A DNA stretch of 64,000 nt from Physcomitrium patens (lineage: Eukaryota > Streptophyta > Bryopsida > Funariales > Funariaceae): the NCBI RefSeq assembly GCF_000002425.4, contig NC_037254.1, positions 23,007,661 to 23,071,660 of the forward strand, in the 5' to 3' direction. This document shows, piece after piece, positions 455 to 63,407 of the stretch (the stretch's first letter is position 1; every line of letters begins with the position of its first letter). The translations under genes and the position numbers were made by a program. The notes under the pieces are model-generated. The model had not been told where the DNA came from, did no database searches, and worked only from the letters and a program-made list of their open reading frames with translations.

Positions 455-876
455 TGTCAGGGACATAGTCCTTAGAACCTTCTAGGGACAAGTTTCTAGA
501 ACCTTCTAGAGACAAGCTTCTAGAACCTTCTAGAAGCAAGTCTCTGAAACCTTTTGGAAGCTTCTTAGTTGCTAGAAGATGTTAGGGACATAGTCCTTAG
601 AACCTTCTAGAGATAAGTTTCTAGAACCTTCTAGAAGCAAGTCTCTGAAACCTTCTAGAAGCTTCCTAGTTAGTAGAAGTTGCTTGAGAAGCTTCCTAAA
701 TAGGAGTATATATTGGAATCGAGGCTGAAGAGTTCTTCAGTCTCGACAACACATCTCTTGGAGCTCTAGCTCACCTCTCTGGTGTTGTTCTTGTATTCAT
801 CTGATTAATCTAGTTCTTGCCAGTTCTTCTTAAACTTCTTGTTAGATCTCAAGCTTGTATTTCTGTGTCCGTGACA
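455..876 (+). repeat. 5' LTR of chromovirus B1
   Basis: It begins TGTCAGGGACATAG and ends TGTCCGTGACA. It matches, in reverse, the two LTRs of B2 (22,144-22,600 and 28,966-29,417). The LTR head is partly duplicated internally: a second TGTTAGGGACATAG starts at 580. A TATA-like GTATATAT lies at about 706-713, so U3 is roughly 455-735 and R/U5 follows. Confidence 0.88.
494..713 (+). promoter_or_regulatory. Heat-shock-element-like array plus TATA box in B1 LTR
   Basis: Alternating TTC and GAA triplets spaced by two bases occur in perfect four-unit runs at 518-535 and 619-636, and a three-unit run lies at 653-665. Further units lie at 494-511, 557-564 and 688-695. The run TTCTAGAACCTTCTAGAA is a textbook match to the heat-shock factor consensus. 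The array sits directly upstream of the TATA-like box at 706-713, where U3 enhancers belong. Response to heat is inference. Confidence 0.6.
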
Positions 877-1436
877 ATTTGTCGAGACTTCACTCACCTC
901 AGATATCAGAGCTAGTTTCTTCTTTGTTAGAGTGTGGATTATCCCTATGCTTGGAAGTGTACTAGAATTTTAGTGGTTGTGGATTACCCTCCTCTAAACT
1001 GATACTTCTTTTGTTACAATATTGGAGCCTTATTCTTCTCAGAGAGAGTGGATTACCTCTTTTCTTGAAGCTCTTAAGGCATTTTAGAGGTTGCGGAGTA
1101 CCCTCCTCTAAACCAATATTATTTTCTTGTAGAGTCATTTTTGTCCTTCTCTTAGAATGGCCAGGGGCCAAGACATTAGTATGACGGAGAGTTCAGAGTC
1201 CAAGTTAGATGCTATCATGAATGCCCTTGCTACGTTATCGCAAAGAACTGCAGAGATTGAAGGAGTCGTGGCAAGGCTTCATAATGATGGAGCATTTGGG
1301 ATGGCACAATCTAGGTTGCACCAGCCTCAAACTTCTGACCTTGGAGAAGCAACTTTGCCTCAGGTTCGACAAGCACTACTGGTTCTACAACATAAGGAGC
1401 CCCGAGTTAGCCTTCCGGACAAGTTCGATGGTACGC
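877..1436 (+). pseudogene. B1 leader and start of gag
   Basis: This is the untranslated leader followed by the start of B1 gag near 1,157 (MARGQDISMTESSESK, then a coiled-coil-like stretch and LPDKFDG). The PDKFDG motif is typical of Ty3 gag. The gag reading is cut at 1,436 by the A1 insertion and its continuation begins at 11,534. A sequence like the initiator-tRNA primer site (GATATCAGAGC) lies about 24 bases from the LTR end, further than usual, so the true primer site is uncertain. Confidence 0.75.
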
Positions 1437-2697
1437 TGTCATATTACGTGCTTTCCTCCTCGAGAACGTGCTGGGCGTCTGGCTGTAGAAGGTAGTATGG
1501 AGATTCGCCAATATTCAAGCAGTTTATCGGTTTTTGACTGTTGGAATACAAACAACTGCAAAAATACACCGTAAATCTATATGGATGCCCTTCGATTGCT
1601 TGTCAAAGTCCTTTTTGTCCCAGCCAGTAGGTCTCTAGACGTTGCAGAGAACCCCAAACAACCCAAACTTCTAATCTTCGATACCGCTTTATACTTACGA
1701 TCTTGTATCCAGTGACTGTCTTGTTAGATTAACCCAATAAATTTCATTCACTCCGCATACTCAATCCTATAGACACCCTTTTAATTCTTCATCACAGACA
1801 TAACTCGATTTTATAAAAACAGTCAAGAGTAATCAAACCCACTTCATTAAAAATCTCGATTCACCATTACAACACTGACTTCAACAACGATTGCTTCAGT
1901 CTTTCCAAAACCCTATGAAGAAAAAAAAACCCAATTCTCTGTCTTCTTTCCCTGCCCAAAGCATGAAGCTAGCTCTCTCCTATCTTCAAAACCTCCCCCC
2001 CAAACTTCTTCTCCCCTCTAACCTTATCCTCTGAATTTCTTCAATCTTCCATCTTGGATCCAGAATTGGCTCCTACCGTCAGAGCTTGGATCCAAAATTG
2101 GCTCTTGCCGTCAAAGCTTTCTCCCCCGTTTTTACCTTTAAGAGATCTTTTTATCGAAAACAACGTTCCCTGAAACGACACAAAGAACAGGACAGCCTGA
2201 AACAGAATCGAAACCTCGTAATCGGGACCACATTGAGTCGCTCGTCCAATTCAGGTCTCATATTGGCTAAGAGTCCAGTAGTAAGACCCGGATGTCCCCG
2301 TAATTGGATCAAATTGGTCCTTCGTGTCAGATTGGCTGAGGCCCGTAGTAAGACCTGGATTTTCTCGTAATTAGACTGCATTGAATTGCCCGACCAATTT
2401 AGGTCTCATATTGGGTAAGAAGACCCAGATTGGATTCTTGAAATTGGATCCAATTGGCTCTTCCAACCAAGCTCACCCGTCATGTGAATTGGTCCTTTCT
2501 CTTCCTGCTGACTCTTGATATTGGAATCGAACGGAGCATTTCAGTAGGCCCCAACTGACTGTAAAGGCGTGACTGAACCTGGCCACTCAGTATTTGTACT
2601 AGAGTTGGTCGTTGCTCCCAATATTCGAGGTAACTGAACATTAATAAAAGTCCCCTTTCTTTATATTTTCACGGTATACTCGTGTTACAACACAACA
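1437..2697 (-). repeat. 3' LTR of A1
   Basis: It starts TGTCATATTACGTGC and ends GTTACAACACAACA, the family A LTR termini (an imperfect TGTCGT...ACGACA inverted pair). It is about 1.26 kb long and holds roughly one copy of the 65-base unit that is tandemly repeated in the solo LTR at 10,577-10,836. Confidence 0.9.
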
Positions 2698-5600
2698 TCC
2701 ACCCCCTCTGAACCTGTGCATCCTCCGGTATGCACCAATTTACCCAATTGCTGTTTGATTTAGAAAATATCCTCTACGTCTTTGTCCAATTCATCTTCGT
2801 CACCTTCATTATCCAAATCACTTTCAATCTCTTGCTGCAGAATCTCTATACCTTCATTAAGGTCTTCCATATTCATCTCCGTGTGTCTTCATTAAAATAT
2901 TTTTACTCGCTTCCCTGCAATTGGTATTTTCAATTTTCTACCATCTAACTCCCGTAACGAGTAAGTCGTATTATCATGAACAGTTGTTACCACATATGGT
3001 CCAAACCAATGTTTTGAAAATTTCCACAAAGTACTATGTTGATTATCCAGACTATTGTCATAAACAAGTACCCAGTCACCTTCCTCGATTGCTTTTGGTC
3101 TCAATCAATGTTGCTTATCGAATCACGCCTTGTTTTGTAACCTTGCTCTTTTTAACCTTCTCAATGCTATCTGGACATCTTTCATTTTTTTCTCCAATTG
3201 TCGAATCCTAATAGCCAGAAGTTCTTCTCTTGTCAATCCATCTTCCCATGGTAGCATACTCCAAGTAAGTACCTTTTCTTCAATCGGCATAATAGGTTTT
3301 CGACCTGTCATAAGTTCTACTGGCATATATCATGTCACCAAACTATGTGTTGTTCAATCAACCCATAATGCAAATGACAAAAGCCGTGGCCACTCTCTAA
3401 CTTTCCAATTACAAGCTTTAACTAATGCTTTCACAATCGGTGGGTGACCGCGTTCACTTTTTGCATTCCTTTCCGGATTATAAGCAGTAGTCACTGATAG
3501 TTTAAATCCACATCTTTCAAAGAACTTACAAGCTTCTTGTGCATTTAATTCTCCACGATCTACAGTGATTTTTCCTACGCATCCGTAGCGGCAAATGACA
3601 TCTTCAAGCAAAAACCTACAAATTCCCTTTGTAGATTTTGTCCTCAATGCTCTTTCTTCTACTTGATTTGATAAATCTTCACAAGCTAAAACCAAATATC
3701 TCATCTGCTATAACCCAACCGGCATAATAACCAAATCAACAACCCATTTAAAATGAATAGCCAGAGGATACATAGGATGAAGACCATCTCGATGTCGGAT
3801 ATTAGAATACGATTGACAGATTTCACATGACTCTACAAATGAGAGCACATCTCGATACATATTTTTCCACCAATATCGTTCCTTGAGTTTAGCAAAAGTA
3901 GCCCAGATTCCTCTATGCCCTGCCCATAAACTATCATGAAACTTCTTTGATAATTTTAGTCTTTCTTCCTTTTTGCCTATCATTCACTGTGGCATCCCAA
4001 TTCCTTTCTTCGGTCTCTTCCATAAGAATCCATCTCGAAGTAAAAATCCATATGATTTTTTTCTTATTTGTTTGAATTTTTTTGTAGACCAATTCCCCTG
4101 CTTAGTCAAGGTATTCAAGTAATGACCAATATCCGATAATTCTCCTTCATAAGATTCTTCAAGAAATAGCTTGTCTTCTTCGTTGAGATTTGATATTGAA
4201 TAGAATTTCAAACCGATGTCATCAATGTCTTCAACCATATTGTCCTCCCTCTCGTATCTTGCTCGAGATAGCATGTCTGCTACTAAATTGTCTTTCCTAG
4301 TAATATGCTTAAATTCTGGATTTAGTGACTTAATATAAGCAATTCATCTCAACATTGCAATATCTGGCGTTGAACAATTAATAATCATTCCAAGCAATGG
4401 CAAGCAATCTAATTCAATTACTACTACTGCCACAATGAAGTAGTCCTTTTCAGCTTTCATAGCCGAAACGACTCCCCAAAGTTCTCTTTTGACTTGCGAA
4501 TATGCATGATGACGAATACTTAAAACTTTAGCTCCAACTCGAACTGCAAATCTATTCCCATTTGAATCATCTTGACCCACAGCCCATCCAATGGCAATTG
4601 GACTAGCGGCCACAATAAGAATCACTGATCTATTGCACTTATAATCAACCTTCCTCAATATTGGAGGTGACATCAATAATTTCTTCAATCTTTGCATTGC
4701 CTGAATATGCCTTTCTTCCCATTTAAATCGGTAACCCTTGCGTAACAGTTCATATAATGGATCCGCTATGTGAGCAAAATGAGGGATCCAGATTCGATAA
4801 AATACACATGCACCCAAAAATCTGAGAACCTCTGTCAAAGAATCACAATCCTCTTTCATCCTTCTAATTGCATCAACTTTAGTCTGATCTGGTTTTCTTC
4901 CATAAGATCCACATAAATGTCCAACAATTACAACCTCTCGTACTCCAAATACAGACTTCATACCCGATAATGTAAGATGAACTTCTCCAAGCCGAGTTAA
5001 AATCTTTTCACAATCTTCTATATGATCAACAATATATTTGCGACACCCCCTCGTATCTAACGTTTCATCCTTGTCTCCTTCTCTGCACCCTTTTATAGGA
5101 ACATCATCCAGAAAAGGCATAGTCTTTTTTCGAATAAAATCTCTCAATACCTTATTCATCCCATTCATCATATGCGTAACTGAGTTGGTCGTGCCTTGAG
5201 GAAGAGTGCACATTCTAACCAATCCAAGCGGTGTCCTCATCGTTGTCATATCTCTACTTCCTTCGGCAAGTTGAAATTGATCATAACCTGAATACAAATC
5301 ACCCATTGAATAGATCGCCCTTCCAACAAACGCCTCAACAAATTCATCCATAATAGGTCCAATTCCTGCATTCTTCATAGATATTGCATTCACCGGTTGC
5401 ATATCTTGAATAAACCGTAGTGACCCATTCTTCTTAGGTACCGTAAACCATCGACTAGAATACGGCACAAATGAGGGTTCCAATATTTTCATCTTTATCT
5501 TTTCTTTTAATAATTCCACCAATTTAGGTAAATGTGTCCTCGATACTGGAATCGATCTTAGATTCCAAGGTACATGCGGTACAGTGAAGATAACCATAGG

Positions 5601-6240
5601 TGTTATAATAATTGGATCTACACACCCAATTTCATAAGATTCGAAGGCAAATGATCTACCTTGTTTAGCCAACATCTTTTTGAAGCAAGTAATTTCTTCC
5701 GACAATAATGAATCATCAGAACCAATCTTCAATTCTTCAAAAGTCTCTTTATGAACTGATGTCCAATACTCATTGGATCTCTTAAACTTGCTTCTTTTGA
5801 CGCTTCTTCCATTTTTTCTTTAGAATCTTCTGGTAATGGTCCGGCAACGGGCTTTACCTTCTTATCTGCCATTTTATATCTCGTCTCTATAGTGACTTCT
5901 GGTGCTTGAAAAGATTCAAGCATGGTATAAACCTCTCTTGAATGAATCTCAAAAATCTTATCATTATCCCCTAACCCAATAGATGTAATTAATTCCAATG
6001 AATCTTCCAGTCCATTTTCTTCATAAACATCTAAAATCCTCTCATCATCTTACAATGTACCTAACTTGTGTAATTGTCCTTCAATATCATATAATCTTTT
6101 TCTTTCTTTTCTTTTAAAATCATCAACTTTCTTATACATAATATTTCCATTCTCCAATATACCAATAAAACTCGCATCAAAGGCACCTTCATCTCGCGAG
6201 AGTACCTCCTCTTTTGTACCTCCATAATCTCGCTTTATAG
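2698..6240 (-). pseudogene. A1 pol region (RT, RNase H, integrase)
   Basis: Going from right to left: RT at about 5.7-4.8 kb with the box PFLDDVPIKG in place of the usual YxDD, RNase H at about 4.7-4.3 kb (VILIVAASPIAIGWAVGQ), and integrase at about 4.0-2.9 kb. The integrase has an HHCC finger (AGHRGIWATFAKLKERYWW, SCEICQSYSN), the core starting VVDLVIMPVG, and a GPY/F-type module (KHWFGPYVVTTVHDN). No chromodomain follows; the tail is acidic. The family's gag-pol boundary may use read-through or a shift, which I cannot tell here. Broken. Confidence 0.88.
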
Positions 6241-8640
6241 TGGTACCTCCCCAAAATCCTTAAATCCTTCAACAATCTTTGGCAATGGTTTCTCCCTCAA
6301 CCTATCTCGATTCCGTTCATGATTAGGAGGTACTGTTAGAAATTGTACAGCTTTCCTCCCATCCTCGCTACGTACCCTTGCATAAGCAGGACCATCGTTA
6401 AGTACTTTTGTTTCCATCCGTGTTGCCATAATATAAGATTGTCCTAAAATCAACGGATAAGACGTTGTATCTTGAACAAAGAAATGTTGCTTCGTCGCAA
6501 CATCCCCAATCCGAATTTTGACATCTGGACAAACTCCATATAATTCGCCCCGTGTGTTATTAGCTGCTTGTATTGCTCATCCATGTTCCATATCAATTGG
6601 CCATTTTTGCTTCTTATAAAGATCTTTAGACATGAGATTTATTTCAGAACCATGGTCGACCAAAGCAACAATTGGTTCTTCTATATCTCCTACTTTCACC
6701 AATACCTCAGTAGTTGCCCTTGCCCAATGCTTTCGAGTATAATGGCTCAAAGTTTCCATTTCCTTATCACTATAATCTTCGAAACGTACTCGTTGATTAT
6801 ATCCATTCTTTTCATTTGTTGGTTGCTTGTAACCAATATCAACCTCTTCTTTATCTTTGTATATTCTTGCATCAATAGCATGACTCATTCCAGTTTTGTC
6901 CATTAATTGCCTCTTTCGCTTAATGCTGTCAATGATAACATCATGAAACTCCTTCTTTGTAATTTCCAAGATTTCTTTCAATGTGAATTCCACCTTAGTA
7001 TTTAATATACGTTCTTTTAACACCCCTTTCAAATTTGTTGCCGCTTCAATGTCAGAAAGAAACTTATAAGCAATTGATTTGCCTTTATCTTTTGTCTCCT
7101 TTGTTTTTTCTCCCAATGATGCTGAGGTATCCTTTACAGGCAATTCTTGTGAAGCTGCCTCCCGAGCCTTGTTTCCTCGAGTTTGCCTCTTAGAAGAATT
7201 TCCTTCTCTAGTATCATCAAAATTTCCTCGTCTCTTTTCTTCCATCAAAGCTTCATGTTGGCTCTTAGCAATATATGCATGAACTGAAAGAGACTCAACA
7301 GGATCCTCCCAACCTATTCTACCTCGTATTGTAGCTGCTGTCCTCAATAACACTTCTCGAGGTAATTTCCCTTCTTGCATTGTAGAAACGGTAGAAGCCC
7401 AAAACTCACTAGTTTCCGTACTTCCACCAAGGTCATCATCTACTCTAGCACCATAACTTGCACTTTCTCGTGCTGCTGTTTCATGCTCTTTTAAGTAATC
7501 TTGAACCAATGCTCTCATTCCTCCCTTGCCAAAATTTGTTTGAAGAAGATCATCCCTATCTTTCAATGCTATCTTTCCATCTTTCTAGCAAATAATTCCT
7601 TGCCGTATCATATTATTAAATTCATTGCAATCTTTTCTAGTGTGTGAAGCATCATCACACCAAATGCATCTTTGTACATATCCTTGTTTTGAAACATTCT
7701 TCGAATTGTTTATAGAAGTATTCTCTTCAAGTCTTGCCAATTTGATTTGAAGATCTCGCATTCCTCGTATAATTTCTTCCATCCCCATATCTGCTTTCTT
7801 TGATAAGGATGTCGAAGGTTGAACTGTAGGCATTGTTGGTGGTGTTGTACGTATTGGAGCTTTGGGTGCTTGTATTGTTTTTGGAATATTGCTCCTATCC
7901 TTCCTCTTTTCTTTTTTTGTAAGCAACCCCACCACATCTTCAACGTTCTTCCACTTTGTTGTTAATCCTTCATCTTCTTCTTTGTCTTCAAGAAGGAGTT
8001 CTAATTTTCCTTGCAATTCTCCATCAGCAGCTTGAAGAAATAGATCAACTTTGTTGGGCTCCAATGTCAATTTTTCTACCTTCAATAATTGAGAATACTG
8101 CCTTTTAAATTCTCTTAATAGCTCTGTTGCTTGCAAATTCTTATTAGGCCATTCAATCCATTCCAAAAACAACTTCTTAGTAACGCGATCAGCATCTTCT
8201 AAAAATATTTGTCTTTCAATGCATGTGAAAAAACCTCCCATGAATTCCCATAATGATCTGTAATCGATGTAATATGGTTTCTTATCTCCGGTATCATGGC
8301 AAGTCCAAATAGTTCAACCATTTTCTTCTCAGAAACCCGATTTAATTCCATTTCACGAACATAACATCTTAAATACCTTGAAATATTCCTTCCATCAAAT
8401 TGATCAATTTTATTGACCACTGCTTGCAATGCTTTGGTTGCCAAAGCTTCCTTTCGATCATTGCTTTGCAGTTGCTGCATTGATAATGAGAAGGCTTAAA
8501 ACATACTAGCAATAGACGGATCCATGTGCATACCTTGTCCTTTAGAAGAATCCCCACCAGAAACTCCTCCCAAAAATCCTTCAAAATTTTTATTTTCTTT
8601 TTCCATAAAATAAAGATAAAGATGAAATCTAATACCTTCC
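6240..8640 (-). pseudogene. A1 gag and protease region
   Basis: Gag lies on the right (about 8.6-7.6 kb), with KIDQFDGRNISRYLRCYV in the capsid-like part and a zinc knuckle CIWCDDASHTRKDC (CX2CX4HX4C). A charged linker follows, then a retropepsin-like domain near 6.7-6.3 kb (IVALVDHGSEINLMSKDLYK). From about 6.6 to 7.8 kb the DNA is almost identical to A3 (17.4-18.6 kb), much closer than on either side. Broken. Confidence 0.88.
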
Positions 8641-9630
8641 ACCTCAAGCTTTCACGTCGGGTTCACCACTTTTGTCGTAATACGTGCTTTCCTGCTCGAG
8701 AATGCGTCGGGCGTTTGGCTGTAGAAGGTAGTATGGAGATTCGCCAATATTCAAGCATTTTATCGGTTTTTGACTGTTGGAATACAAACAACTGCAAGAA
8801 TACACCGTAAATCTATATGGATGCCCTTCGATTGCTTGTCGAAGTCCTTTTTGCCCCAGCCGGTAGGTCTCTAGACATTACAGAAAACCCCGAACAACCC
8901 AAACTGCTAATCTTCGATACTGCTTTATATTCACGATCTTGTATCTACTGACTGTCTTGTTAGCTTAACCCAATAAATTTCATTCACTCGGCATACTCAA
9001 TCCTATAGACACCCTTTTAATTCTTCAATCATTGGCATAACTTCGATTTCACAAAACAATCAAGAGTAATTAAACCCTCTTCATTAAAAATCCCGATTCA
9101 CCATTACAACACTGACTTCAGCAACGATTGTCTCAGTCTTCCCAAAACCCTATGAAGAAAAAAAACCCAATTCTCTGTCTTCTTTCCCCGTCCGAAGCAT
9201 AAAGCTAGCTCTCCTCTATCTTCAAAACCTCCCCAAAAACTTCTTCTCTCCCTTAACCTTATCCTCTGAATTTCTTCAATCTTTCGTCTTAGATCCAGAA
9301 TTGGCTCCCATTGTCAAAGCTTGGATCCAAAATTCGCTCTCGCCGTCAGAGCTTTCTCCCCCATTTTTACCTTTAAGAGATCTTTTTATCGAAAACAACG
9401 TTCCCTGAAACGGCACAAAGAACAGGACAGCCTGAAACAGAATCAAAACCTCGTAATTGGGACCACATTGAGTCGTCCGACCAATTCAGGTCTCATATTG
9501 GCAAAGAGTCCAGTAGTAAGACCCGGATGTCCCCGTAATTGGATCAAATTGGTTCTCGCGTGAGATTGGCTAAGAGGCCCGTAGTAAGACCTAGATGTTC
9601 CCGTAATTGGATCAAATTGGTCCTTCTCGT

Positions 9631-11533: not shown

Positions 11534-14500
11534 ACGCGTTCCAAATTTCAAGGATTCGTCAACCAAATGAAGTTGATAACACTTTTACAGCTTGAACGCT
11601 ATTCAATCGAGGAGTCATGTGTTGGGCTTGTTGGAACCTTACTTACAGGACAAACTCTATCATGGTTTGCTCTTTTGTTTGAGAAACGATCGTCCATACT
11701 AAACAACTTTGAAACCTTTTAGGAGGCATTTGCGGAAGCATTTGGTGAACACGAAAAGGTTCGATGGACTTCAACAAAGATCCGGTCACTACGACAAGAG
11801 ATGCGTTCTACATCAATCTATGCATCGAACTTCAGGCAATTAGCATGCGACATCAATTGGGATGAAGAAGCGTTGATGAGTCAATTCTATTGGGGTTTAA
11901 GGGGCGATGTGAAGGATTTGCTATTAACTCTTCCTGATCTGTAAATGCTCAACGAAGCTATTAGCCAAGCTGTGAAGTGCAATAATCGCCTATTTCAACG
12001 TCACCAAGACCAACGTTCAAGACAACATACGATTCGCCACACCCCAACTATGTCGGCAAGCAGTGTGAATTCACATTCAGAGGTAGAAGACATGCAAATT
12101 CATGCGGTATGTGTCAAATCTCTTACTCTAGAAGAAAAAAAGCGACGTATAGAGGGAGGTCTATGCTTGTATTGCGGTGAAGAAGGCCACAAAGTTGGAA
12201 ACTATCCCAAGAAGCAAAATCGACATATTATCAAGACTAGGGGCACGTTTATTCAGGAAAACGAGGATGCCTAGCCACAATAGGAACCATGCGGTTGGAC
12301 AGTGAAATATCACACCAACAACCAGGTTCCTTTCTTTCCACTCAACTTGTCCTTTGCTTTACAATCTCTTTGCTTATTGGCCCTCAGAAACTGAGAACCT
12401 TAGCATTATTAGATTCAAGAGCATCTACTTGTTTCTTAGACGAAGAAGTTACAAAGCATCATAAGATCCCTTTAGTACAAAAATCCAAACCTATTCACGT
12501 TGAGGTCATAGATGGACGACCTTTATTGTTTGGTAGTGTCACCCATGAATCAGAACCTATAGAAGTGTTGTTTAAGGGGCATAGTAGTCATATTATTTTT
12601 AATATTATTAGAATCCCATCAAATCTTATTATTTGTTGGTCTTTCCTCGTTGAAAAAGCATAACCCATCCATAGATTGGAAGTTGCGGAAGATAACCTTT
12701 GCCACAAAACCACCCAAGAGCAAGCCTAGTAGAAAACCCCGAATAGAGAAATCCTTATTCATTGGAGCAAGAGCGTTTATAAGATCTTCTAAGGAAGGCA
12801 CACTGTTTGTCATTTATGCGACTCCAGCTACCGGGGAGAAGATCTCGATAGCAAGTATACTTGAGCAATATAATGATTTTAAAGACGTGTTTCAAAAGAA
12901 AAATATCAACATGCTATCGGAACACAGACCATATGATTGCGCCATAGACTTGCAAGAAAGAGCACAACCGCCTTTTGGCCCAATCTACAATCTATCGTAG
13001 ACAAAGTTGGTGGAGTTGCGGAATTACATGGACGAGAATCTAGCCAAGAACTTCATCCGTCATTCAAAATCGTCAGCTGGAGCACCCATCTTATTTGTGA
13101 AGAAGAAAGATGGCTCGTTGCAGATGTGAGTGGACTATCGAGGCCTCAACAAGATAATAAAGAAGAATCGTTATCCATTACCCTTGATTTTTGGTCTCTT
13201 AGAACAACTTGGATGTACAAGGATCTTTACAAAAATTGATCTAAGGGGAGCTTACAACCTCATATGAATCAAGGAAGGAGATGAGTGGAAGACAGCGTTC
13301 TGTAGAAGGTATGGCCATTTTGAATATAATGTCATGCCCTTTGGTCTTACCAATGCTCCAGTGGTCTTTCAACATATGATGAATGACATTTTCCGAGAGC
13401 ACCTTGATGATTTTGTTGTCATTTATTTAGATGATATTTTGATATTCTCGAAAAATGAAGAAGAGCATGAAAAATATGTTCGTTTGGTCTTGGAGAAACT
13501 ACGCAAGCGAGGACTATATGCCAAGTTGGAGAAGTGTTTATTTCACCAAATAGAGACATAGTTTTTGGAATTGATTGCAACTACGGAAGGCTTGAAGATG
13601 GACCCCAAGAAGGTGGAAGCAATCGTGTCCTGGGAGGTTCCGAAGACGGTTAGAGACGTACAATGCTTGCTTGGTTTTGTCAACTTCTATCGGATCTTCA
13701 TCAAGAATTACTCTCAAGTTGTTGTTCCTCTCACTTGGTTGACATGCAAGGATAAGCTGGAATGGAGACCTCTAGCAAAGAAGGCGATTCAAAACTTGAA
13801 GACCGCATTTACTACGGCTCCAATCTTGGTACATCTAGACTTTACAAAGGCCTTTTATTTAGAAATTGATACTTCGGATTTTGTTTTGGGAGCTGTACTT
13901 TCACAAATGGGAGAAGACAAGAAGCTCCATCCAATTGCATTCTATTCTCGAAAGTTCTCTACTGTTGAAATCAATTATGAGATCCACGATAAGGAACTTC
14001 TTGCTATAGTGGATTCTTTCCAAGAATGGCATCACTTTCTTAAAGGAGCTGCGTAGCCAGTTATTGTATACACAGATCACAAGAATTTGGAGTATTTCAT
14101 GTCGACTCGAGTTCTAAATCGACGTCAAGCTCCGTGGAGTATGGTACTATCTAGGTTTGATTTTGTTATCACTTATCGACCTGGAAAGCAGCAAGGCCTA
14201 TCTGATGCCTTATCAAGGAGATCGTATCTTGTACCAAAGGCTGGGGAAGTAGCGTTTGATCAACAATGCACGACATTGTTGAAGCCAGAGCAATTTCAGC
14301 TTTGCGCTACTATTTTGCCAATTGATGCTGACTTCTTGAATCAGGTACGTGCCGTGACCATTGAAGATTCAGTAGCCATTGATATTAAGCAGCATGCCAA
14401 TGACGACAAGTTTAAGGTGGAGGGAGAGCTTTTATACTTTGAGGAGCGGTTATATATCCCAAAAGGACCAGCACGACTCCGAGTTCTTCAATCTCGCCAT

Positions 14501-15490
14501 GATTTTCTAGCTGCAGGATATTTTGGATTCAACAAGACCTTGGAGCTTATTTCTCGAGATTTTTGGTGGCTCCAAATGTGGAAGGATGTGAAAGATTTTG
14601 TCCTCTTCTGCGATATCTGTTCAAGATCCAAGAATCTTTGGCATCGCCCTTATGGACTCTTACAGCCATTGCCGATTCCATGTCCACCATGGTCTTCAAT
14701 TTCCATGGACTTCATCACGGACCTGCCATCATCGAATTCATTTGACAGCAACTTTGTCGTAGTAGATCGGTTACAAAAATGGCGCACTTTGTCCCTTGCA
14801 AGAAGACATCATCTATTGAAGTTACAGCAAGGCTCTTTCTCAATAATGTGTATCGTTATCATGGACTACCAGATGATATCATATCAAATCGAGGAACCCA
14901 GTTCGTATCAAAGATTTGGAGATCTCTCTTTGAGATACTGAAGGTGGATATCAAGCTTTCTTCGGCTTTTCATCCTCAAACTGACGGCCAAACAGAATGG
15001 GTGAATCAAGTCTTGAAACAATACTTACGATGCAGTATCAACTATCAGCAAGACGATTGGACCACATATCTGCCGCTAGCTGAGTTTACATATAACAACA
15101 CCCTCCATGCATCGACTCAATACACATCATTCTTTTTCAAATATGGGTATCATCCAAAGCTTGATTTATTGAGTCCATCAACAAATAACAATCTAGCAAC
15201 TGAAGGATTTGCGAAACAACTATCAGAGCTTCAAAATACGTTGAAGCTTCAATTCCAATCCGCTCAAGAATCCTACAAGGCGTCTGTAGATAGATTCCAG
15301 AATCAAGCACCTACTTTCAAAATTGGAGATAAAGCATGGCTTCTTCGATGAAATATCAAGACTAAGCGACCCTGTGATAAGTTGGACTATCAAAGATTGG
15401 GACCATTTATCATCCAGAAGCAAATCAATCCACTGGCGTACCGTTTGGAATTACCAGCTTCTATGAAGGTACATCTAGTCTTTCATGATA
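11534..15490 (+). pseudogene. B1 gag remainder, protease, RT, RNase H and integrase
   Basis: This continues B1 after the A1 insertion. Gag capsid sequence (KFQGFVNQMKLITLLQLE) comes first, then a zinc knuckle near 12.17 kb (CLYCGEEGHKVGNYPKK), protease near 12.4 kb, RT at about 12.85-13.55 kb ([28 protein letters not shown]), RNase H at about 13.6-14.2 kb, and integrase at about 14.45-15.45 kb. The piece ends in the GPY/F-like part of integrase ([20 protein letters not shown]). The chromodomain seen in B2 is not seen here. Broken. Confidence 0.88.
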
Positions 15491-18400
15491 CTTTCTTCCC
15501 ATTTAAATCGGTAGCCCTTGCGTAACAGTTCATATAATGGATCCGCTATGTGAGCAAAATGAGGGATCCAGATTCGATAAAATACACATGCACCCAAAAA
15601 TCTGAGAACCTTTGTTAAAGAATCACAATCCTCTTTCATCCTTCCAATTGCATCAACTTTAGTAGGATCTGGTTTTCTTCCATAAGATCCACATAAATGT
15701 CCAACAATTACAACCTCTCGTACTCCAAATACAGACTTCATACCCGATAATGTAAGATGAACTTCTCCAAGCCGAGTTAAAATCTTTTCACAATCTTCTA
15801 TATGATCAACAATATATTTGCGACACCCCCTCGTATCTAACGTTTCATCCTTGTCTCCTTCTCTGCACCCTTTTATAGGAACATCATCCAGAAAAGGCAT
15901 AGTCTTTTCCGGAATAAAATCTCTCAATACCTTATTCATCCCATTCATCATATGCGCAACTGAGTTGGTCACGCCTTGCGGAAGAGTGTACATTCTAACC
16001 AATCCAAGTAGTGTCCTCATCGTTGTCATATCTCTACTTCCTTCGGCAAGTTGAAATTGATCATAACCTGAATACAAGTCATCCATTGAATAGATCGCCC
16101 TTCCAGCAAACGCCTTAGCAAATTCATCCACAATAGGTCCAATTCCTGCATTCCTGACAGTTACTACATTTACCAGTTGCATATCTTGAATAAACCGTAG
16201 TGATCCATTCTTCTTAGGTACCGTAAACCATCGACTAGAATACGACACAAATGAGGGTTCCAATATTTTCATCTTTATCTTTTCTTTTAATAATTCCACC
16301 AATTTAGGTAAATGTGTCCTGGATACTGGAATCGATCTTAGATTCCAAGGTACATGCGGTACAGTGAAGATAACCATAGGTATTATAATAATAGGATCTA
16401 CACACCCAATTTCATAAGATTCGAAGGCAAATGATCTACCTTGTTTAGCCAACATCTTTTTGAAGCAATTAATTTCCTCCGACAATAAAGAATCATCAGA
16501 ACTAATCTTCAATTCTTCAAAAGTCTCTTTATGAACTGATGTCCAATACTCATTGGATCTCTTAAACTTGCTTCTTTAGATGCTTCTTCCATTTGTTCTT
16601 TAGAATCTTCTGGTAATGGTCCGGCAACGGGCTTTACCTTCTTATCTGCCATTTTATATCTCGTCTCTATAGTGACTTCTGGTGCTTGAAAAGATTCAAG
16701 TATGGTATAAACCTCTCTTGAATGAATCTCAAAAATCTTATCATTATCCCCTAACCCAATAGATGTAATTAATTCCAATGAATCTTCCAGTCCATTTTCT
16801 TCATAAACATCTAAAATCCTCTCATCATCTTACAATGTACCTAACTTGTGTAATTGTCCTTCAATATCATATAATCTTTTTCTTTCTTTTCTTTTAAAAT
16901 CATCAACTTTCTTATACATAATATTTCCATTCTCCAATATACCAATAAAACTCGCATCAAAGGCACCTTCATCTCGCGAGAGTACCTCCTCTTTTGTACC
17001 TCCATAATCTCGCTTTATAGTGGTACCTCCCCAAAATCCTTAAATCCTTCAACAATCTTTGGCAATGGTTTCTCCCTCAACCTATCTCGATTCCGTTCAT
17101 GATTAGGAGGTACTGTTAGAAATTGTACAGCTTTCCTCCCATCCTCGCTACGTACCCTTGCATAAGCAAAACCATCGTCAAGTACTTTTGTTTCCATCCG
17201 TGTTGCCATAATATAAGGTTGTTCTAAAATCAACGGATAAGACGTTGTATCTTGAACAAAGAAATGTTGCTCCGTCGCAACATCCCCAATCCGAATTTTG
17301 ACATCTGGACAAGCTCCATATAATTCGCCCCGTGTGTTATTAGCTGCTTGTATTGCCCATCCATGTTCCATATCAATTGGCCATTTTTGCTTCTTATAAA
17401 GATCTTTAGACATGAGATTTATTTCAGAACCATGGTCGACCAAAGCAACAATTGGTTCTTCTATATCTCCTACTTTCACCAATACCTCAGTAGTTGCCCT
17501 TGCCCAATGCTTTCGAGTATAATGGCTCAAAGTTTCCATTTCCTTATCACTATAATCTTCGAAACGTACTCGTTGATTATATCCATTCTTTTCATTTGTT
17601 GGTTGCTTGTAACCAATATCAACCTCTTCTTTATCTTTGTATATTCTTGCATCAATAGCATGACTCATTCCAGTTTTGTCCATTAATTGCCTCTTTCGCT
17701 TAATGCTGTCAATGATAACATCATGAAACTCCTTCTTTGTAATTTCCAAGATTTCTTTCAATGTGAATTCCACCTTAGTATTTAATATACGTTCATTTAA
17801 CACCCCTTTCAAATTTGTTGCCGCTTCAATGTCAGAAAGAAACTTATAAGCAATTGATTTGCCTTTATCTTTTGTCTCCTTTGTTTTTTCTCCCAATGAT
17901 GCTGAGGTATCCTTTACAGGCAATTCTTGTGAAGCTGCCTCCCGAGCCTTGTTTCCTCGAGTTTGCCTCTTAGAAGAATTTCCTTCTCTAGTATCATCAA
18001 AATTTCCTCGTCTCTTTTCTTCCATCAAAGCTTCATGTTGGCTCTTAGCAATATATGCATGAACTGAAAGAGACTCAACAGGATCCTCCCAACCTATTCT
18101 ACCTCGTATTGTAGCTGCTGTCCTCAATAACACTTCTCGAGGTAATTTCCCTTCTTGCATTGTAGAAACGGTAGAAGCCCAAAACTCACTAGTTTCCGTA
18201 CTTCCACCAAGGTCATCATCTACTCTAGCACCATAACTTGCACTTTCTCGTGCTGCTGTTTCATGCTCTTTTAAGTAATCTTGAACCAATGCTCTCATTC
18301 CTCCCTTGCCAAAATTTGTTTGAAGAAGATCATCCCTATCTTTCAATGCTATCTTTCCATCTTTCTAGCAAATAATTCCCTGCCGTATCATATTATTAAA

Positions 18401-20648
18401 TTCATTGCAATCTTTTCTAGTGTGTGAAGCATCATCACACCAAATGCATCTTTGTACATATCCTTGTTTTAAAACATTCTTCGAATTGTTTATAGAAGTA
18501 TTCTCTTCAAGTCTTGCCAATTTGATTTGAAGATCTCGCATTCCTCGTATAATTTCTTCCATCCCCATATCTGCTTTCTTTGATAAGGATGTCGAAGGTT
18601 GAACTGTAGGCATTATTGGTGGTGTTGTACGTACTGGAGCTTTGAGTGCTTGTACTGTTTTCGGAATATTGCTCCTATCCTTCCTCCTTTCTTTTTTTGT
18701 AAGTAACCCCACCGCATCTTCAACGTTCTTCCACTTTGTTGTTAATCCTTCATCTTCTTCTTTGTCTTCAAGAAGGGTTTCTAATTTCTCTTGCAATTCT
18801 CCATCAACACCTTGAAAAAGTAAATCAACTTTGTTCGGCTCTAATGTCAATTTTTCTACCTTCGATAATTGAGAGTACTGCCTCTCAAATTCCTTTAGTA
18901 GCTCTGTTGCTTGTAAATTCTTATTAGGCCGTTCAATCCATTCCAAAAACAACTTTTTAGTAACGCGATCAGCATCTTTCAAGAAATATTTGTCTTTCAA
19001 TGCATGTGAAAAAACCTCCCATGAATTCCCATAACGATCCATAATCGATGTAATATGGTCTCTTATCTCCGGTATCGTGGCAAGTCCAAATAGTTCAACC
19101 ATTTTCTTCTCAGAAACCCGATTTAATTCCATTTCACGAACATAACATCTTAAATACCTTGAAATATTCCTTCCATCAAATTGATCAATTTTATTGACCA
19201 CTGCTTGCAATGCTTTGGTTGCCAAAGCTTCCTTTCGATCATTGCTTTGCTGTTGCTGCATTGATAATGAGAAGGCTTGAAACATACTAGCAATAGACGG
19301 ATCCATGTGCATACCTTGTCCTTTAGAAGAATCCCCACCAGAAACTCCTCCCAAAAATCCTTCAAAATTTTTATTTTTGTTTTCCATAAAATAAAGATAA
19401 AGATGAAATCCAATACCTTCCACCTCAAGCTTTCACGTCGAGTTCACTACTTTTGTCGTAATACGTGCTTTCCTGCTCGAGAACGCGTCGGGCGTCTGGC
19501 TGTAGAAGGTAGTATGGAGATTCGCCAATATTCAAGCAGTTTATCAGTTTTTGACTGTTGGAATACAATCAAGTGCAAGAATACACCGTAAATCTATATG
19601 CATGCCCTTCGATTGCTTGTCGAAGTCCTTTTTGCCCCAGCCGATAGGTCTCTAGACGTTACAGAGAACCCCGAACAACCCAAACTGTTAATCTTCGATA
19701 CCGCTTTATACTCACGATCTTGTATCCACTGTCTTGTTAGATTAACCCCATAAATTTCATTCACTCCGCATACTGAATCCTATAGACACCCTTTTAATTC
19801 TTCAATCATTGACATAACTTCAATTTTACAAAATTGTCAAGAGTAATCACACCCACTTCATTAAAATCCCGATTCACCAGTAGAGCACTGACTTCAGCAA
19901 CGATTGTCTTTGTCTTCCCAAAACCCTATGAAGAAAAAAAAATCCCAATTCTTTGTCTTTTTCTCCCTCACGAAGCATAAAGCTTGCTCTCCGACCCCTC
20001 TAAAACCGTTATTCTCTCCTTTTTATTTTTAATCTATCCTCCCCTTTAACCCTAATTCTCCCCTCTTTCAAACCCTAGCCTCTGAATTTCTTCAATCTTT
20101 CGTCTTGGATCCGAAATTGGCTCATGGTGTCAGAGCTTTTTCCTTCGTTTTTACCTTTATGAGATCCTTTTACCGAAAGGACGTTCCCAGAACGGCACAA
20201 AGGATGGAATAGCGTGAAACGGAATCGAAACCCCCATAATCGGGACCATATTGAGTTGCCTAACCAATTCAGGTCTTATATTGGCTAAGAGGCCCGTAGT
20301 AAGACTTGGATGTTCCCATAATTAGACCGCATTGGGTTTTCCCACCAAGTCAAGTCTCATATTGAATAAGAGGACTTGGATTGGATGTCTTGAAATTGGA
20401 TCCAATTGGCTCTTCGAGCCAAGCTCACCCGTCGTTGAATTGGTCCTTTCCTTTTCTGCTGACTGCCGTTATTGGAATCGAATGGAGCATTTTAGTATGC
20501 CCTAGCTGACTGTAACGGGGTGACTGAACCTGGCCTCTCAGTATTTGCACTGGAATTAGTTGTTGCTTCCAATATTCGAGGTAACTGAACATTAATAAAA
20601 GTCCCCTTTCTTTATATTTTCACGATATACTCGTGTTACAACACGACA
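15491..20648 (-). mobile_element. Right piece of Ty3/gypsy fossil A3
   Basis: This is the 5' half of A3 on the minus strand: 5' LTR (19,454-20,648), gag (about 19.4-18.4 kb, MENKNKNFEGFLGG, then the CIWCDDASHTRKDC knuckle), protease (about 17.5-17.0 kb) and RT (about 16.5-15.5 kb, PFLDDVPIKG). The reading continues into 1-454 across B1. The right edge abuts chromovirus C protease sequence at 20,649, so A3 sits inside C. A3 shares some of its lesions with A1. Broken. Confidence 0.9.
19454..20648 (-). repeat. 5' LTR of A3
   Basis: It starts TGTCGTAATACGTGC and ends GTTACAACACGACA; length is about 1.2 kb. It has at most a partial 65-base unit. It resembles the right LTR of A1 at roughly 95% by eye. 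The partner LTR lies outside the window. Confidence 0.88.
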
Positions 20649-22143
20649 TCATCCGTTGTCTTTAGAAGATGTTACTCATGAAATCCTTCCTATAGAAGTA
20701 GCAACTAATAGTCATAGTAGCTTTGTAATATTTAATATCATTAGATCTCCCTCTAATCTAATCATCTTAGATTTATCATGGCTAGAAAAATATAATCCTA
20801 AAATAGATTAGACTTCTCGTAGTCTTCACTTTTCTAAAAGTATAACTAAGAACATAATTAATCAAGTAAAAAGTCATAAGTCTAATACAATTAAACTTGT
20901 ATTTGTAGGTGCAAGAGCTTTCTTGCATGTTGCAAAAAAAAAATCATCTTATGAGATTTATGCCGCTCTTGTTTCTACAAGTCGAAAGACTTCAAGTGGC
21001 ATTCTAAACCAATATCAAGATTTTCGAGATGTATTTGAAAAGAAGAATGCAGATACTCTTTCAGAACATCGTTCCTATGACTACTCAATTGACCTTGAAA
21101 AAGGAGCACAATCACCATTTGGACCAATCTACAGTTTATCACGAAATGAGCTAGCTGAACTCAAGGAGTATATTGAAGAAAATTTGGCCAAGAACTTCAT
21201 ACGCCATTCCAAATCTCCACCAAGAGCTCCAATTTTATTTGTGAAGAAAAAAGATGGATCATTACAAATGTGTGTTGATTATCGAGTATTCAACAAAATT
21301 ACTATCAAGAATAGGTATTTGCTTTCTTTGATATTTGGACTCCTTGATCAATTGAATCAAGGTAAGATCTATACAAAAATAAATCTATGAGGAGCATATA
21401 ATCTAGTATGCATCAAAAAAGGAGATGAATAGAAGACTTCGTTTTGAACAAGGTATTGACATTTCAAATACAATGTCATGCCTTTTGCACTTACAAATGT
21501 ACCAACAACATTCCAACATCTAATAAATGATGTCTTTCAAGATTTTTTAGATGATTTTGTTATCAGCTACCTAGACGATATCTTAATCTATTCTAAAAAT
21601 ATAGAAGAACATGAACTTCATGTTCGTTGTGTATTACAAAAACTAAGAGATAGGAGACTCTATGCTAAGATAGAAAAATGTGTATTCTACACTACTCAAG
21701 TTGGCTTCTTAGGATACATCATTTTAAATGATGAACTTATGATAGATCCTAAGAAAATTTGAACTATTATAGAATGGAAGATCCCAAAAATGGTAAGAAA
21801 TGTCCAATGTTTTTTGGGATTTGCCAACTACTATCGGATCTTTATCAAAGACTTCTCTCAAGTTGTAGCTCTACTTACACGTTTGACTTATAAAGACAAA
21901 CTTCAATGGAATCAAGAAGCGGAAGTAGCATTTGAAGCTTTGAAAACAGCCTTTATTTTTGCACCAATCTTGTATCACATCAATTTTTCTAAACCATTTT
22001 TATGAAAATAGACACATCAAACTTTGTCTTAGGTGCCGTATTATCATAAATGGGAAGAAATGATAAACTTCATCCAATAGCTTTTCATTCCAGAAAATTT
22101 TCAGCAGCCAACATCAACTACAAGATTCACAACAAAGAACTTC
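20649..22143 (+). mobile_element. Chromovirus-type Ty3/gypsy fossil C, first piece (protease to RNase H)
   Basis: Plus-strand sequence related to, but distinct from, family B. It has the end of the protease region (FNIIRSPSNLIILDLSWLEK), RT at about 20.9-21.7 kb ([30 protein letters not shown]) and the start of RNase H. The left edge is the A3 insertion point and the right edge is the B2 insertion point. ACTTC at 22,139-22,143 is repeated at 29,418-29,422, after B2. The 5' half of C must lie left of the window. It is broken, with well over ten lesions, and is the oldest layer of the nest. Confidence 0.85.
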
Positions 22144-22600
22144 TGTCACGGACATAGAAATACAGACTCAAGATCTAAGAAGAAGTTCAGAAGAACTGTC
22201 AAGAATTAGATTAATCAGATGAATACAAGAACAACACGAGAGAGGTGAGCTAGAACTCCAAGAGATGTGTTGTCGAGACTGAAGAACTCTTCAGCCTCGA
22301 TTCTAATATATACTTTTATTTAGGAAGCTTCTCAAGCAACTTTTACCAACTAAGAAGCTTCTAGAAGGTTCCAGAGACTTGCTTATAGAAGGTTCTAGAA
22401 ACTTATCTCTAGAAGGTTCTAAGAACTATGTCCCTAACATCTTCTATCAACTAGGAAGCTTCTCAAATAATTTCCATCAACTAGGAAGCTTCTCAAATAA
22501 TTTCCATCAACTAGGAAGCTTTTAGAAGGTTCCAAAGACTTGCTTCTAGAAGGTTCTAGAAAATTGTCTCTAGAAGGTTCTAATGACTATGTCCCTAACA
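22144..22600 (-). repeat. 3' LTR of B2
   Basis: On the plus strand it reads TGTCACGGACATAG to ATGTCCCTAACA (457 bases). It holds heat-shock-like runs at 22,354-22,371 (GAAGCTTCTAGAAGGTTC, four perfect units) and 22,388-22,400, upstream of a TATA-like box near 22,305 when read on the minus strand. Confidence 0.9.
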
Positions 22601-22677
22601 TCACCCCCTCCTTTAGCTTTGAGGTCTCTGAGAAGCAATGTTGTTAATCAGTACCTATGCAAGAAAATGAAGATCTG

Positions 22678-23079: not shown

Positions 23080-24620
23080 GTGGTGCTCTTACCCTTTCTT
23101 ATATTCTTGGGTGAGCAAGCTTCGGAAGGAAGCTTTCGTGGAACCAGCTTAGGTTTATGATGATGTTGTTGATGAAACTCATATACCTTTTGTGGCGCAT
23201 TGGTGAGATTTTCAGCTGGCTCCCACATTCGCTCATTAATGTCGTAGCCGCACCAATGAACAATATACTCCAACTTACTCCACCTTCGTCGTGAATCCAG
23301 TACCTTTTCAACCTCGTATTCCTCGTGGTTCTCGATCTCAATACTAGGTGGCGGACATTGCACTCTTCCAGGAAAAGACGACTCTCAATAAGGCTCCAAT
23401 AGAGAAACATGAAAGATTGGATGTACCTTCATAGAAGCCAGTAATTCCAAACGGTACGCCACTGGATTGATTTGCTTCTGGATGATAAATGGTCCCAATC
23501 TTCGATAGTCCAACTTATCACATGGTCACTTCGTCTTGATATTCCATTGAAGAAGCCATGTTTTATCTCCAATTTTAAAAATACATGCTTGATTCTGGAA
23601 TCTATCTGCAGACGCCTTGTAGGATTCTTGAGCGGATTGCAATTGAAGCTTCAACGTATTTTGAAGCTCTGATAGTTGTTTCGTAAATCCTTCAGCTGTT
23701 AGATTGTTATTTGTTGACGGATTCAATAAATCAAGCTTTGGATGATACCCATAGTTGGAAAAGAATGGTATATATTGAGTCGATGCATTGAGGGTGTTAT
23801 TATATGCAAACTCGGCTAGCGACAGATATGTGGTCCAATCGTCTTGCTGATAGTTGATGCTGCATCGTAAGTATTGTTCCAAGACTTGGTTCACCTATTT
23901 CGTTTGGCCGTCAGTTTGAGGATGGAAAGCCGAAGAAAGCTTGATATCCACCTTCAGTATCAAATGAGTTCGATGATGGCAGGTCCGTAATGAAGTCCAT
24001 GGAAACTGAAGACCATGGTCGACGTGGAATCGGCAATGGTTGTAAGAGTCCATAAGGGCAATGCCGAGGATTCTTGGATCTTGAACAGATATCGCAAAAG
24101 AGGACAAAATCTTTCACATCCTTCCACATTTGGAGCCACCAAAAATCTCGAGAAATAAGCTCCAAGGTCTTGTTGAATCCAAAATATCCTGCAGCTAGAA
24201 AATCATGGCGAGATTGAAGAACTCGGAGTCGTGCTGGTCCTTTTGGGATATATAACCGCTCCTCAAAGTATAAAAGCTCTCCCTCCACCTTAAACTTGTC
24301 GTCATTGGCATGCTGCTTAATATCAATGGCTACTGAATCTTCAATGGTCACGGCACGTACCTGATTCAAGAAGTCAGCATCAATTGGCAAAATAGTAGCG
24401 CAAAGCTGAAATTGCTCTGGCTTCAACAATGTCGTGCATTGTTGATCAAACGCTACTTCCCCAGCCTTTGGTACAAGATACAATCTCCTTGATAAGGCAT
24501 CAGATAGGCCTTGCTGCTTTCCAAGTCGATAAGTGATAACAAAATCAAACCTAGATAGTACCATACTCCACGGAGCTTGACGTCGATTTAGAACTCGAGT
24601 CGACATGAAATACTCCAAAT
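23080..24620 (-). pseudogene. B2 integrase and chromodomain
   Basis: The integrase has the HHCC finger (FGFNKTLELISRDFWW, LFCDICSRSKN) and core motifs SMDFITDLPSSNSFD and AFHPQTDGQTK. The chromodomain follows near 23.3 kb with YEVEKVLDSRRR, KLEYIVHWCGYD and MWEPAENLTNAP, carrying the aromatic residues typical of histone-methyl-lysine readers. In this family the domain is thought to steer insertion to heterochromatin. The region is broken. Confidence 0.88.
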
Positions 24621-26625
24621 TCTTGTGATCTGTGTATACAATAACTGGCTACGCAGCTCCTTCAAGAAAGTGATGCCATTCTTGGAAAGAATCCACTATA
24701 GCAAGAAGTTCCTTATCGTAGATCTCATAATTGATTTCAACAGCAGAGAACTTTCGAGAATAGAATGCAACCGGATGGAGCTTCTTGTCTTCTTCCATTT
24801 GTGAAAGTACAGCTCCCAAAATAAAATCCGAAGCATCAATTTCTAAATAAAAGGCCTTTGTAAAGTCTGGATGTACCAAGATTGGAGCCGTAGTAAATGC
24901 AGTCTTCAAGTCTTGAAACGCCTTCTTTGCTAGAGGTCTCCATTCCAGCTTATCCTTGCATGTCAACCAAGTGAGAGGAGTAGCAACTTGAGAGTAATTC
25001 TTGATGAAGATCCGATAGAAGTTGACAAAACTAAGCAAGCATTGTACGTCTCTAACCATCTTCGGAACCCCCCAAGACACGATTGCTTCCACCTTCTTGG
25101 GGTCCATCTTCAAGCCATCCGTAGTTGCAACGAATCCCAAAAACTTCGTCTCTATTTAGTGAAATAAACACTTCTCCAACTTGGCATATAGTCGTCGCTT
25201 GCAGAGTTTCTCTAAGACCAAACGAATGTGCTTTTCATGCTCTTCTTCATTTTTCGAGAATATCAGAATATCATCCAAATAGATGACAACAAAATCGTCA
25301 AGGTGCTCTCGGAAAATGTCATTCATCATATGTTGAAAGACCACTGGAGCATTGGTAAGACCAAAGGGCATGACATTATATTCAAAATGGCCATACCTTC
25401 TACAGAACGCTGTCTTCCACTCATCTCCTTCCTTGATTCATATGAGGTTGTAAGCTCCCCTTAGATCAATTTTTGTAAAGATCCTTGTACATCCAAGTTG
25501 TTCTAAGAGACCAAAAATCAAGGGTAATGGATAACGATTCTTCTTTATTATCTTGTTGAGGCCTCGATAGTCCACTCACATCTGCAACGAGCCATCTTTC
25601 TTCTTCACAAATAAGATGGGTGCTCCACCTGACGAGTTTGAATGACGGATGAAGTTCTTGGCTAGATTCTCATCGATGTACTTCTGTAACTCCGCCAACT
25701 CCGTCTGCGATAGATTGTAGATTGGGCCAAAAAGCGGTTGTGCTCCTTCCTGCAAGTCTATAGCGCAATCATATGGTCTGCGTTGTGGTAGCATGTCGGC
25801 ATTCTTCTTTTAAAACACGTCTTTAAAATCCTCATATTGCTCAGGTATATTTGCTGTCGAGATCTTCTCCCCGATAGTTGAAGTCGCATAAATGACAAAC
25901 AATGTGCCTTCTTTAGACGATCTTATAAACGCTCTTGCTCCAATGAATAAGGATTTCTCTATTCAGGGTTTTCTACTAGGCTTCCTCTTGGGTGGTTTTG
26001 TAGAAAAGGTCATCTTCTGCAACCTCCAATCTATGGATGGGTTATGCTTTTTCAACCAGGAAAGACCAAAAATAAGAGGATTTGATGGAGTTCTGATAAT
26101 ATTGAAAATAATATGACTACTTTGGCCTTTAAACGTCACTTCTATAGGTTTTGATTCATAGGTGACACTACCAAACAATAAAGGTCGTCCATCTATGACC
26201 TCAATGTGAACAGGTTTGGATTTTCGTACTAAAGGGATCTTATGATGCTTTGCAAATTCTTCGTCTAAGAAACAAGCAGATGCTCCTGAATCTAATAATG
26301 CTAAGGTTCTCAGTTTCTGAGGGCCAATAAGCAAAGGGTAGGTTGAGCGGAAAGAAAGGAAACTGGTTGTTGGTGTGATATTTCACTGTCCAGCCGCATG
26401 GTTCCTATTGTGGCTGGGCATCCTCGTTTTCCTGAATAAACGTGCCCCTAGTCTTGATAATACGTCGATTTTGCTTCTTGGGATAGTTTCCAACTTTGTG
26501 GCCTTCTTCATCGTAATACAAGCATAGATCTCCCTCTATACGCCGCTTTTTTTCTTCTAGAGTAAGAGATTTGACACGTACCACATCAATTTGCATGTCT
26601 TCTACCTTTGAATGTAAATTCATGC

Positions 26626-60480: not shown

Positions 60481-60489
60481 TAAACTGAT

Positions 60490-63340: not shown

Positions 63341-63407
63341 TAAAGATAAAATCAACCGAAATCCAATACCTTCCACCTCAAGCTTTCACGTCGGGTTCAC
63401 CACTTTT

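Follow-up and report, generated by a model that had tools for sequence, protein, structure and literature searches.

Perfect heat-shock-element arrays in the LTRs of an abundant moss chromovirus form a putative HSF-type promoter

The LTRs of family B, a chromodomain Ty3/gypsy retrotransposon of the moss Physcomitrium patens, carry arrays of perfect heat-shock elements (HSEs) in U3, ahead of a TATA box and a predicted RNA start. The family probably owes its amplification to transcription from this promoter, which heat-shock factors (HSFs) would bind and activate. The window analysed is a stretch of 64,000 nucleotides, C2:23,007,661-23,071,660 of the P. patens genome, and genome-wide counts were taken over 470.4 Mb in 101 contigs. 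The host was identified from a light-harvesting reading frame of this genome (L045), which matches chain 8htu_9 without a difference over 249 of 249 residues; the structure 8HTU is PpPSI-L, a large photosystem I complex from P. patens (PMC10005731).

HSE arrays in the window and across family B

The 5' LTR of the first copy, B1, runs from TGT to ACA at 456-876 on the plus strand, its ends having been read from the sequence, and aligns by BLAST with both LTRs of the second copy, B2, at 84% identity over about 450 bp. The span to which the arrays had been assigned, 455-713, includes most of the U3 of this LTR. Pattern matching on the plus strand of the B1 LTR identified a three-unit HSE at 494-506, perfect four-unit HSEs at 518-535 and 619-636, which lie at -221 to -204 and -120 to -103 from the predicted start, and a three-unit HSE at 653-665 (-86 to -74). 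The last three had been named in the original prediction and were recovered as described, the two longer ones as perfect four-unit TTCnnGAAnnTTCnnGAA and the third as a perfect three-unit run. By repeat analysis, the HSE-bearing U3 of B1 is a 24-bp tandem array (473-659, plus strand), and the same U3 has a 101-bp duplication (483-679, plus strand).

Both B2 LTRs, located on the minus strand by BLAST and pattern matching, keep the runs, as had been proposed: the 3' LTR (22144-22604) at 22354-22371, 22388-22400 and 22544-22561, and the 5' LTR (28966-29418) at 29177-29189, 29206-29223, 29235-29247 and 29361-29378. The run at 22,354-22,371 has four units but is GAA-first (GAAnnTTCnnGAAnnTTC), the TTC-first four-unit runs of B2 being those at 22,544-22,561, 29,206-29,223 and 29,361-29,378. 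Five TTC-first four-unit runs are present in the window, all five inside B LTRs, against a mean of 0.01 in 100 dinucleotide shuffles; three-unit matches number 27 against 1.55 in shuffles, and 17 of the 27 fall within the three B LTRs. Genome-wide, the perfect four-unit HSE pattern is found at 8,121 places, compared with 114 for the reversed pattern used as a control.

A sample of 60 LTRs was drawn from C1 (3.0-10.2 Mb) using exact matches to a 22-mer downstream of the HSEs, here called the R anchor; as the anchor lies outside the HSEs, the LTRs were picked without regard to HSE content. Among the matches listed, 66 anchor places lie beyond 3.0 Mb, of which six were omitted from the sample. 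The U3 search for HSE runs reached up to -400 from the predicted start. All 60 LTRs possess at least one four-unit run in either phase (reversed control 0) and three-unit runs, and 16 possess five-unit runs. The expectation that HSE runs would exceed those of shuffled LTRs was amply borne out, with a mean of 3.12 four-unit runs per U3, and up to 10, against 0.0005 per LTR in 100 shuffles of each. The sampled LTRs share descent, and so the figure of 60 of 60 characterises family B and not 60 independent events.

The R anchor has 5,915 genome places with at most two mismatches, and its control none. Below 2.97 Mb and among the matches listed, a count restricted to TTC-first runs shows one at 27 of 34 exact R anchors, and 68 of 94 TTC-first runs adjoin a B LTR anchor. 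The retrieved loci, which were themselves selected for containing runs of this kind, hold 55 of them, all beside a B anchor; the remaining 26 of the 94 come from outside these loci. The only 24-mers of locus L010 that recur in 9 or more of 12 B loci come from the start-site palindrome, a stretch of RT, a stretch of integrase and the HSE module, a comparison in which two LTRs per element and repeated HSE units favour the palindrome and the HSE module. Paired LTRs of 31 B elements are 88.8-99.4% identical (median 96.2%). The wording that family B "was once" heat-responsive need not be confined to the past, given that LTR identity reaches 98% or more in 6 of the 31 dated elements, each of the six with four-unit runs. 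HSE number showed no link with element age (rho -0.25, p = 0.38, n = 15).

An MK-like test on 31 elements for which both LTRs were available (E58, which would have been the 32nd, was dropped) gave a pre/post ratio for HSE letters relative to other U3 letters of 0.36 (95% 0.26-0.50), with post-insertion divergence alike in HSE letters (58/1,299) and other U3 letters (227/5,160). A gapless control pointed in the opposite direction, with pre-insertion values of 0.173 for HSE letters and 0.048 for other U3 letters. This reversal is attributed to misalignment, as repeat units are shifted between subfamilies and the linker differs by a 1-bp indel, and the strength of the MK-like result to its dependence on the alignment of repeats. 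In a hand-anchored comparison of two subfamilies, 0 of 36 HSE columns and 5 of 42 others differ (p = 0.058), and widespread variants in hand-anchored comparison showed no difference, at 5 of 48 HSE and 13 of 84 other columns (p = 0.60). Between-group variation anchored at the LTR start, with subfamily labels that merged types III and IV with I, was 0.093 for HSE letters, 0.183 for flanks and 0.053 for spacers. Purifying selection is not claimed for HSE letters, as the MK-like signal is contradicted by the gapless control, the hand-anchored comparison is not significant and the one anchored at the LTR start does not single out GAA/TTC.

Chains of GAA/TTC phased at 10 bp, with at least three units, varied GAAnnTTC spacers and an A before GAA, are the signature of the HSF trimer. 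Across the 60 LTRs, A precedes GAA in 751 of 847 units, a base preference that fits putative HSF binding; 390 of 407 TTCnnGAA spacers read TA, and GAAnnTTC spacers are of 12 kinds. The genome holds at least eight HSF DNA-binding exons. Upstream stretches of 500 bp from 5 of 28 HSP20 matches, with the translation start unmapped, all contain one-mismatch three-unit HSEs, nine in total, where the rate at other gene loci (15 across 60,883 bases, near-identical copies included) predicts about 0.6. A perfect three-unit HSE is found in none of the five stretches, from which it follows that the LTR form differs from the form of these host genes; by the same count, host HSP20 promoters were rejected as a source of the perfect HSEs. 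Judged by their letters, the HSP20 HSEs would be weaker than those of the LTRs and of the same grammar. The motif GAAGYTCTAGA, reported in 49 of 100 promoters of P. patens heat-induced genes (PMC7073223), resembles the LTR module.

Start site and base composition of the promoter

The TATA-like box of the original prediction is present upstream of the start and is best placed at 707-714 rather than 706-713 (plus strand), where TATATATT was read from the sequence with its first T at -32 from the predicted start. The predicted RNA 5' end is the self-primer AGTCTCGACAA (739-749, plus strand), recognised by its complementarity to the primer-binding site TTGTCGAGACT (879-889, plus strand), which is its perfect complement and lies 2 nt past the LTR. 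Tf1 of fission yeast has an 11-nt self-primer at its RNA 5' end that pairs just behind the 5' LTR, and the self-primer layout of family B is like that of Tf1 in a different host; Tf1 is not known to carry an HSE array. From this Tf1-type layout, the RNA is predicted to begin at the A of AGTCTCGACAA.

The geometry is the same across the family. TATATA begins 32 bp ahead of the predicted start in 60 of 60 sampled LTRs, and the 11-mer 2 nt after the 5' LTR complements the predicted RNA start of that LTR perfectly in 22 of 32 cases and in 31 of 32 when a single mismatch is allowed, while a complement with at most two mismatches is found at 0 of 31 3' LTRs and in 1 of 672 control 11-mers. The self-primer and the TATATA spacing are two independent features that converge on one start site, predicted at window position 739. 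In priming itself rather than through a tRNA, family B agrees with the Tcn1 clade. A tRNA primer was considered for ATATCAGAGC, about 25 nt behind the LTR, which we take to resemble a Met-tRNA primer site, and was set aside as the self-primer 2 nt behind the LTR fits far better. In the B1 LTR, a strong 12-bp hairpin (719-746, plus strand; -18.9 kcal/mol, z -3.2) bridges U3 and R, and its 3' arm contains most of the self-primer.

The 60 LTRs contain 187 four-unit runs, of which 186 start at positions from -350 to -80 relative to the predicted RNA start and one lies farther upstream. Taken with the TATA box and the predicted start, these positions put the HSEs in the enhancer position of a well-defined promoter. 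On its letters, the U3 of family B is an anatomically convincing HSF-type promoter, with HSF binding and a heat response as its putative functions.

The U3 is also poor in symmetric methylation sites. Between -260 and -40, the observed/expected ratio is 0.29 for CG and 0.25 for CHG, compared with 0.43 and 1.03 in the R/U5 of the same LTRs; in the internal parts of six B elements the ratios are 0.78 and 0.75. Outside the HSE chains, the U3 of the 60 LTRs has a CG ratio of 0.38 and a CHG ratio of 0.12. With 127 CG and 86 CHG in 13,200 U3 bases, the region is strongly depleted of both and not free of them, whereas the ONSEN promoter is reported to be without CG and CHG sites (PMC3907296). Such a scarcity of CG and CHG sites would restrict symmetric methylation of the DNA across this enhancer.

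Identity of family B and neighbouring LTR families

B1 gag begins at 1325-1436, is interrupted by a family A insertion at about 1437 and continues at 11537-12388 (both plus strand, by protein comparison); RT, RNase H, integrase and the start of the chromodomain lie at 13307-15519 (plus strand, by domain and protein comparison) in a broken reading frame. The internal region of B2 (23148-28517, minus strand, by protein comparison) holds gag, RT, RNase H, integrase and chromodomain and is 81-85% identical in amino acids to other B copies, with one short stretch at 64%. Pfam and PDB matches to open stretches of several B copies give the gag-pol order RT, RNase H, integrase, which is that of Ty3/gypsy. 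A Chromo domain (PF00385) is present at the integrase C-terminus, behind SH3_Tf2-1 (PF24626), with E-values of 1.7e-16 (L010) and 9.7e-12 (L021), and these two domains behind the integrase support the earlier designation of family B as a chromovirus. With its chromodomain and self-priming, family B is a Ty3/gypsy retrotransposon of the Tcn1 type, an assignment in which tree position plays no part.

In the sampled part of C1, B LTR pairs are mostly spaced 5.6-6.1 kb apart, with an additional class near 4 kb. Past the chromodomain and ahead of the 3' LTR, family B has an extra reading frame (L010:7210-7563; L005:1418-1789, minus strand), which ends QQLEFIA.VMR.IFIFL.WY in several copies; no Pfam match was obtained for the two frames tested. 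A 26-mer of the B RT is found at 2,463 genome places with at most three mismatches, and another B RT 24-mer at 6,206, a count to which family C also contributes.

RLG1, whose integrase carries a chromodomain, is reported to be the most abundant transposable element family of P. patens, with a tree that is not clearly congruent with plant phylogeny (PMC7466625). From the chromodomain and copy number of family B, rather than from comparison with an RLG1 sequence, we infer that family B is RLG1. The two are alike in host and chromodomain, and the abundance of family B would fit RLG1; however, RLG1 is reported to be expressed in protonema without stress, and heat shock and UV-B to repress it (PMC7466625). 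If family B is RLG1, this repression makes plain heat activation doubtful under the published conditions. The two findings are in sharp conflict, a seemingly ideal heat-shock promoter being present in the family that most resembles one reported as heat-repressed. RLG2, a smaller gypsy family of P. patens with 529 complete copies, is reported to be heat-induced (PMC7466625).

Other LTR families are present in the window. Family D, a second and older LTR family at about 52300-54400, has its own HSE array, built of a 50-bp tandem unit with GAACCTTCTAGAA and located upstream of a TATA box, with a four-unit run at 52466-52483. Its LTRs are about 72% alike, and its anchor has 33 genome places with at most three mismatches (control 2). 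Of four further D copies, three have a perfect three-unit HSE and all have at least three one-mismatch three-unit HSEs. HSE arrays are thus present in at least two moss LTR families, B and D, either by ancestry or by recurrence. Family C is a related chromovirus, split by the B2 insertion into 20400-22140 and 29420-31200, with a pol 55-69% identical to that of family B; its window variant, counted apart from the common variant, has 40 genome places. Family A is Ty3/gypsy with three window copies (1437-9150, 15475-19423 and 56148-63882), no chromodomain detected, and a pol 24-mer at 2,668 genome places with at most two mismatches; B1 is broken by family A insertions.

Explanations and comparison with known systems

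The HSE promoter suggests that family B was or is switched on through the heat-shock system. The U3 holds perfect HSEs over about -75 to -350, followed by a TATA box at -32 and a constant predicted start. In the preferred reading, host heat-shock factors would bind these arrays as trimers and activate transcription, and the RNA supply of family B, and hence its amplification, would have depended on HSF activity. Heat would be the putative trigger; if family B is RLG1, net heat induction at present would be doubtful and basal HSF activity in protonema would be the likelier trigger. HSFs may act on family B mainly on heating, now or recently, as in ONSEN, with transcripts of RLG1 and family B that differ or a heat regime that missed family B, and this is possible without being favoured. 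In copia elements of Brassicaceae, four-unit runs of the 4P type are associated with heat induction of as much as thousand-fold (PMC5059998), the CG- and CHG-poor U3 recalls an ONSEN promoter reported free of both (PMC3907296), and RLG2 provides the moss with a heat-induced gypsy family (PMC7466625). However, the 529 complete copies of RLG2 are too few for the 5,915 R-anchor places of family B, and RLG1, which fits in size and chromodomain, is the family reported as heat-repressed (PMC7466625). It may tentatively be proposed instead that HSFs use the arrays in unstressed protonema and that heat redirects them to host genes, whereupon expression of family B falls. The expression pattern reported for RLG1 (PMC7466625) and the HSE arrays of all 60 sampled LTRs fit such a course, but the equation of family B with RLG1 is unproven and repression on heating may have other causes. 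That family B spread on an HSF promoter active at rest and not on heating, with its LTR HSEs forming a large reserve of HSF sites, is quite unlikely; if true, most perfect four-unit HSEs of the genome would sit in transposon LTRs, and the reserve could sequester heat-shock factors and so weaken or delay the host's heat response.

Two further explanations dispense with HSFs. The TTCTAGAA arrays could be a by-product of 24-bp tandem duplication by replication slippage, serving no factor, with their presence in 60 of 60 LTRs reflecting common descent. The U3 is indeed a tandem array, the arrays vary between subfamilies, and the gapless, hand-anchored and LTR-start-anchored comparisons do not bring out HSE-specific constraint. 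This explanation is nevertheless unlikely, as the HSE module is among only four stretches of L010 whose 24-mers recur in 9 or more of 12 B loci (a count that repeats and doubled LTRs favour), the unit grammar fits HSF and the HSE arrays of family D use a different, 50-bp unit. Several factors recognise palindromes, and one other than HSF could bind the palindromic TTCTAGAA sites, at which HSF binding is itself presumed; phased GAA/TTC chains with varied GAAnnTTC spacers and an A before GAA are, however, the known HSF-trimer signature, and a different factor is therefore improbable.

P. patens, a model moss, is amenable to easy gene targeting, and as arrays of the ONSEN kind occupy thousands of LTRs of its self-primed chromovirus, a link between HSFs and transposon success is directly testable. 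Among the matches listed by searches of the open-licence PMC literature, no paper concerns HSEs in moss LTRs, and a 95-base DNA query returned no match in a search that skips very common words and so is silent on rarity. In the published accounts cited here, heat-driven plant retrotransposon promoters are described from flowering-plant copia elements of modest copy number. ONSEN/COPIA78, COPIA37, TERESTRA and ROMANIAT5 are Ty1/copia elements of flowering plants, whereas family B is a moss element of the Ty3/gypsy type with a chromodomain; the LTRs of ONSEN and TERESTRA are reported to carry at least four adjacent nGAAn units (4P type), as do those of family B in 60 of 60 cases (PMC5059998). 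The HSE of ONSEN is reported to have arisen by duplication, and COPIA78 has 55 copies in A. lyrata compared with thousands of LTRs for family B (PMC5059998; PMC3907296). Heat induction is demonstrated for ONSEN and putative for family B.

Closer to family B in structure, the Tcn1-clade chromoviruses of mosses and club-mosses (PpatensLTR, SM-Tcn1) likewise have a chromodomain (PMC6317226; PMC2864245), and most plant members of the clade are predicted to self-prime (PMC6317226). The available text of these descriptions mentions no HSEs, whereas family B has arrays of them (PMC6317226; PMC2864245). Putative LTR HSEs are also reported for TCN3 (Ty3/gypsy) and TCN12 of Cryptococcus, which show more transposition at 37 C (PMC12810828). 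TCN3 has two putative HSEs, and two full-length copies in the isolates described, and TCN12 has one putative HSE, both in a fungal host, whereas family B has arrays of perfect runs (PMC12810828). What appears to be new here is an ONSEN-like promoter in a moss chromovirus, the kind of promoter itself being already known.
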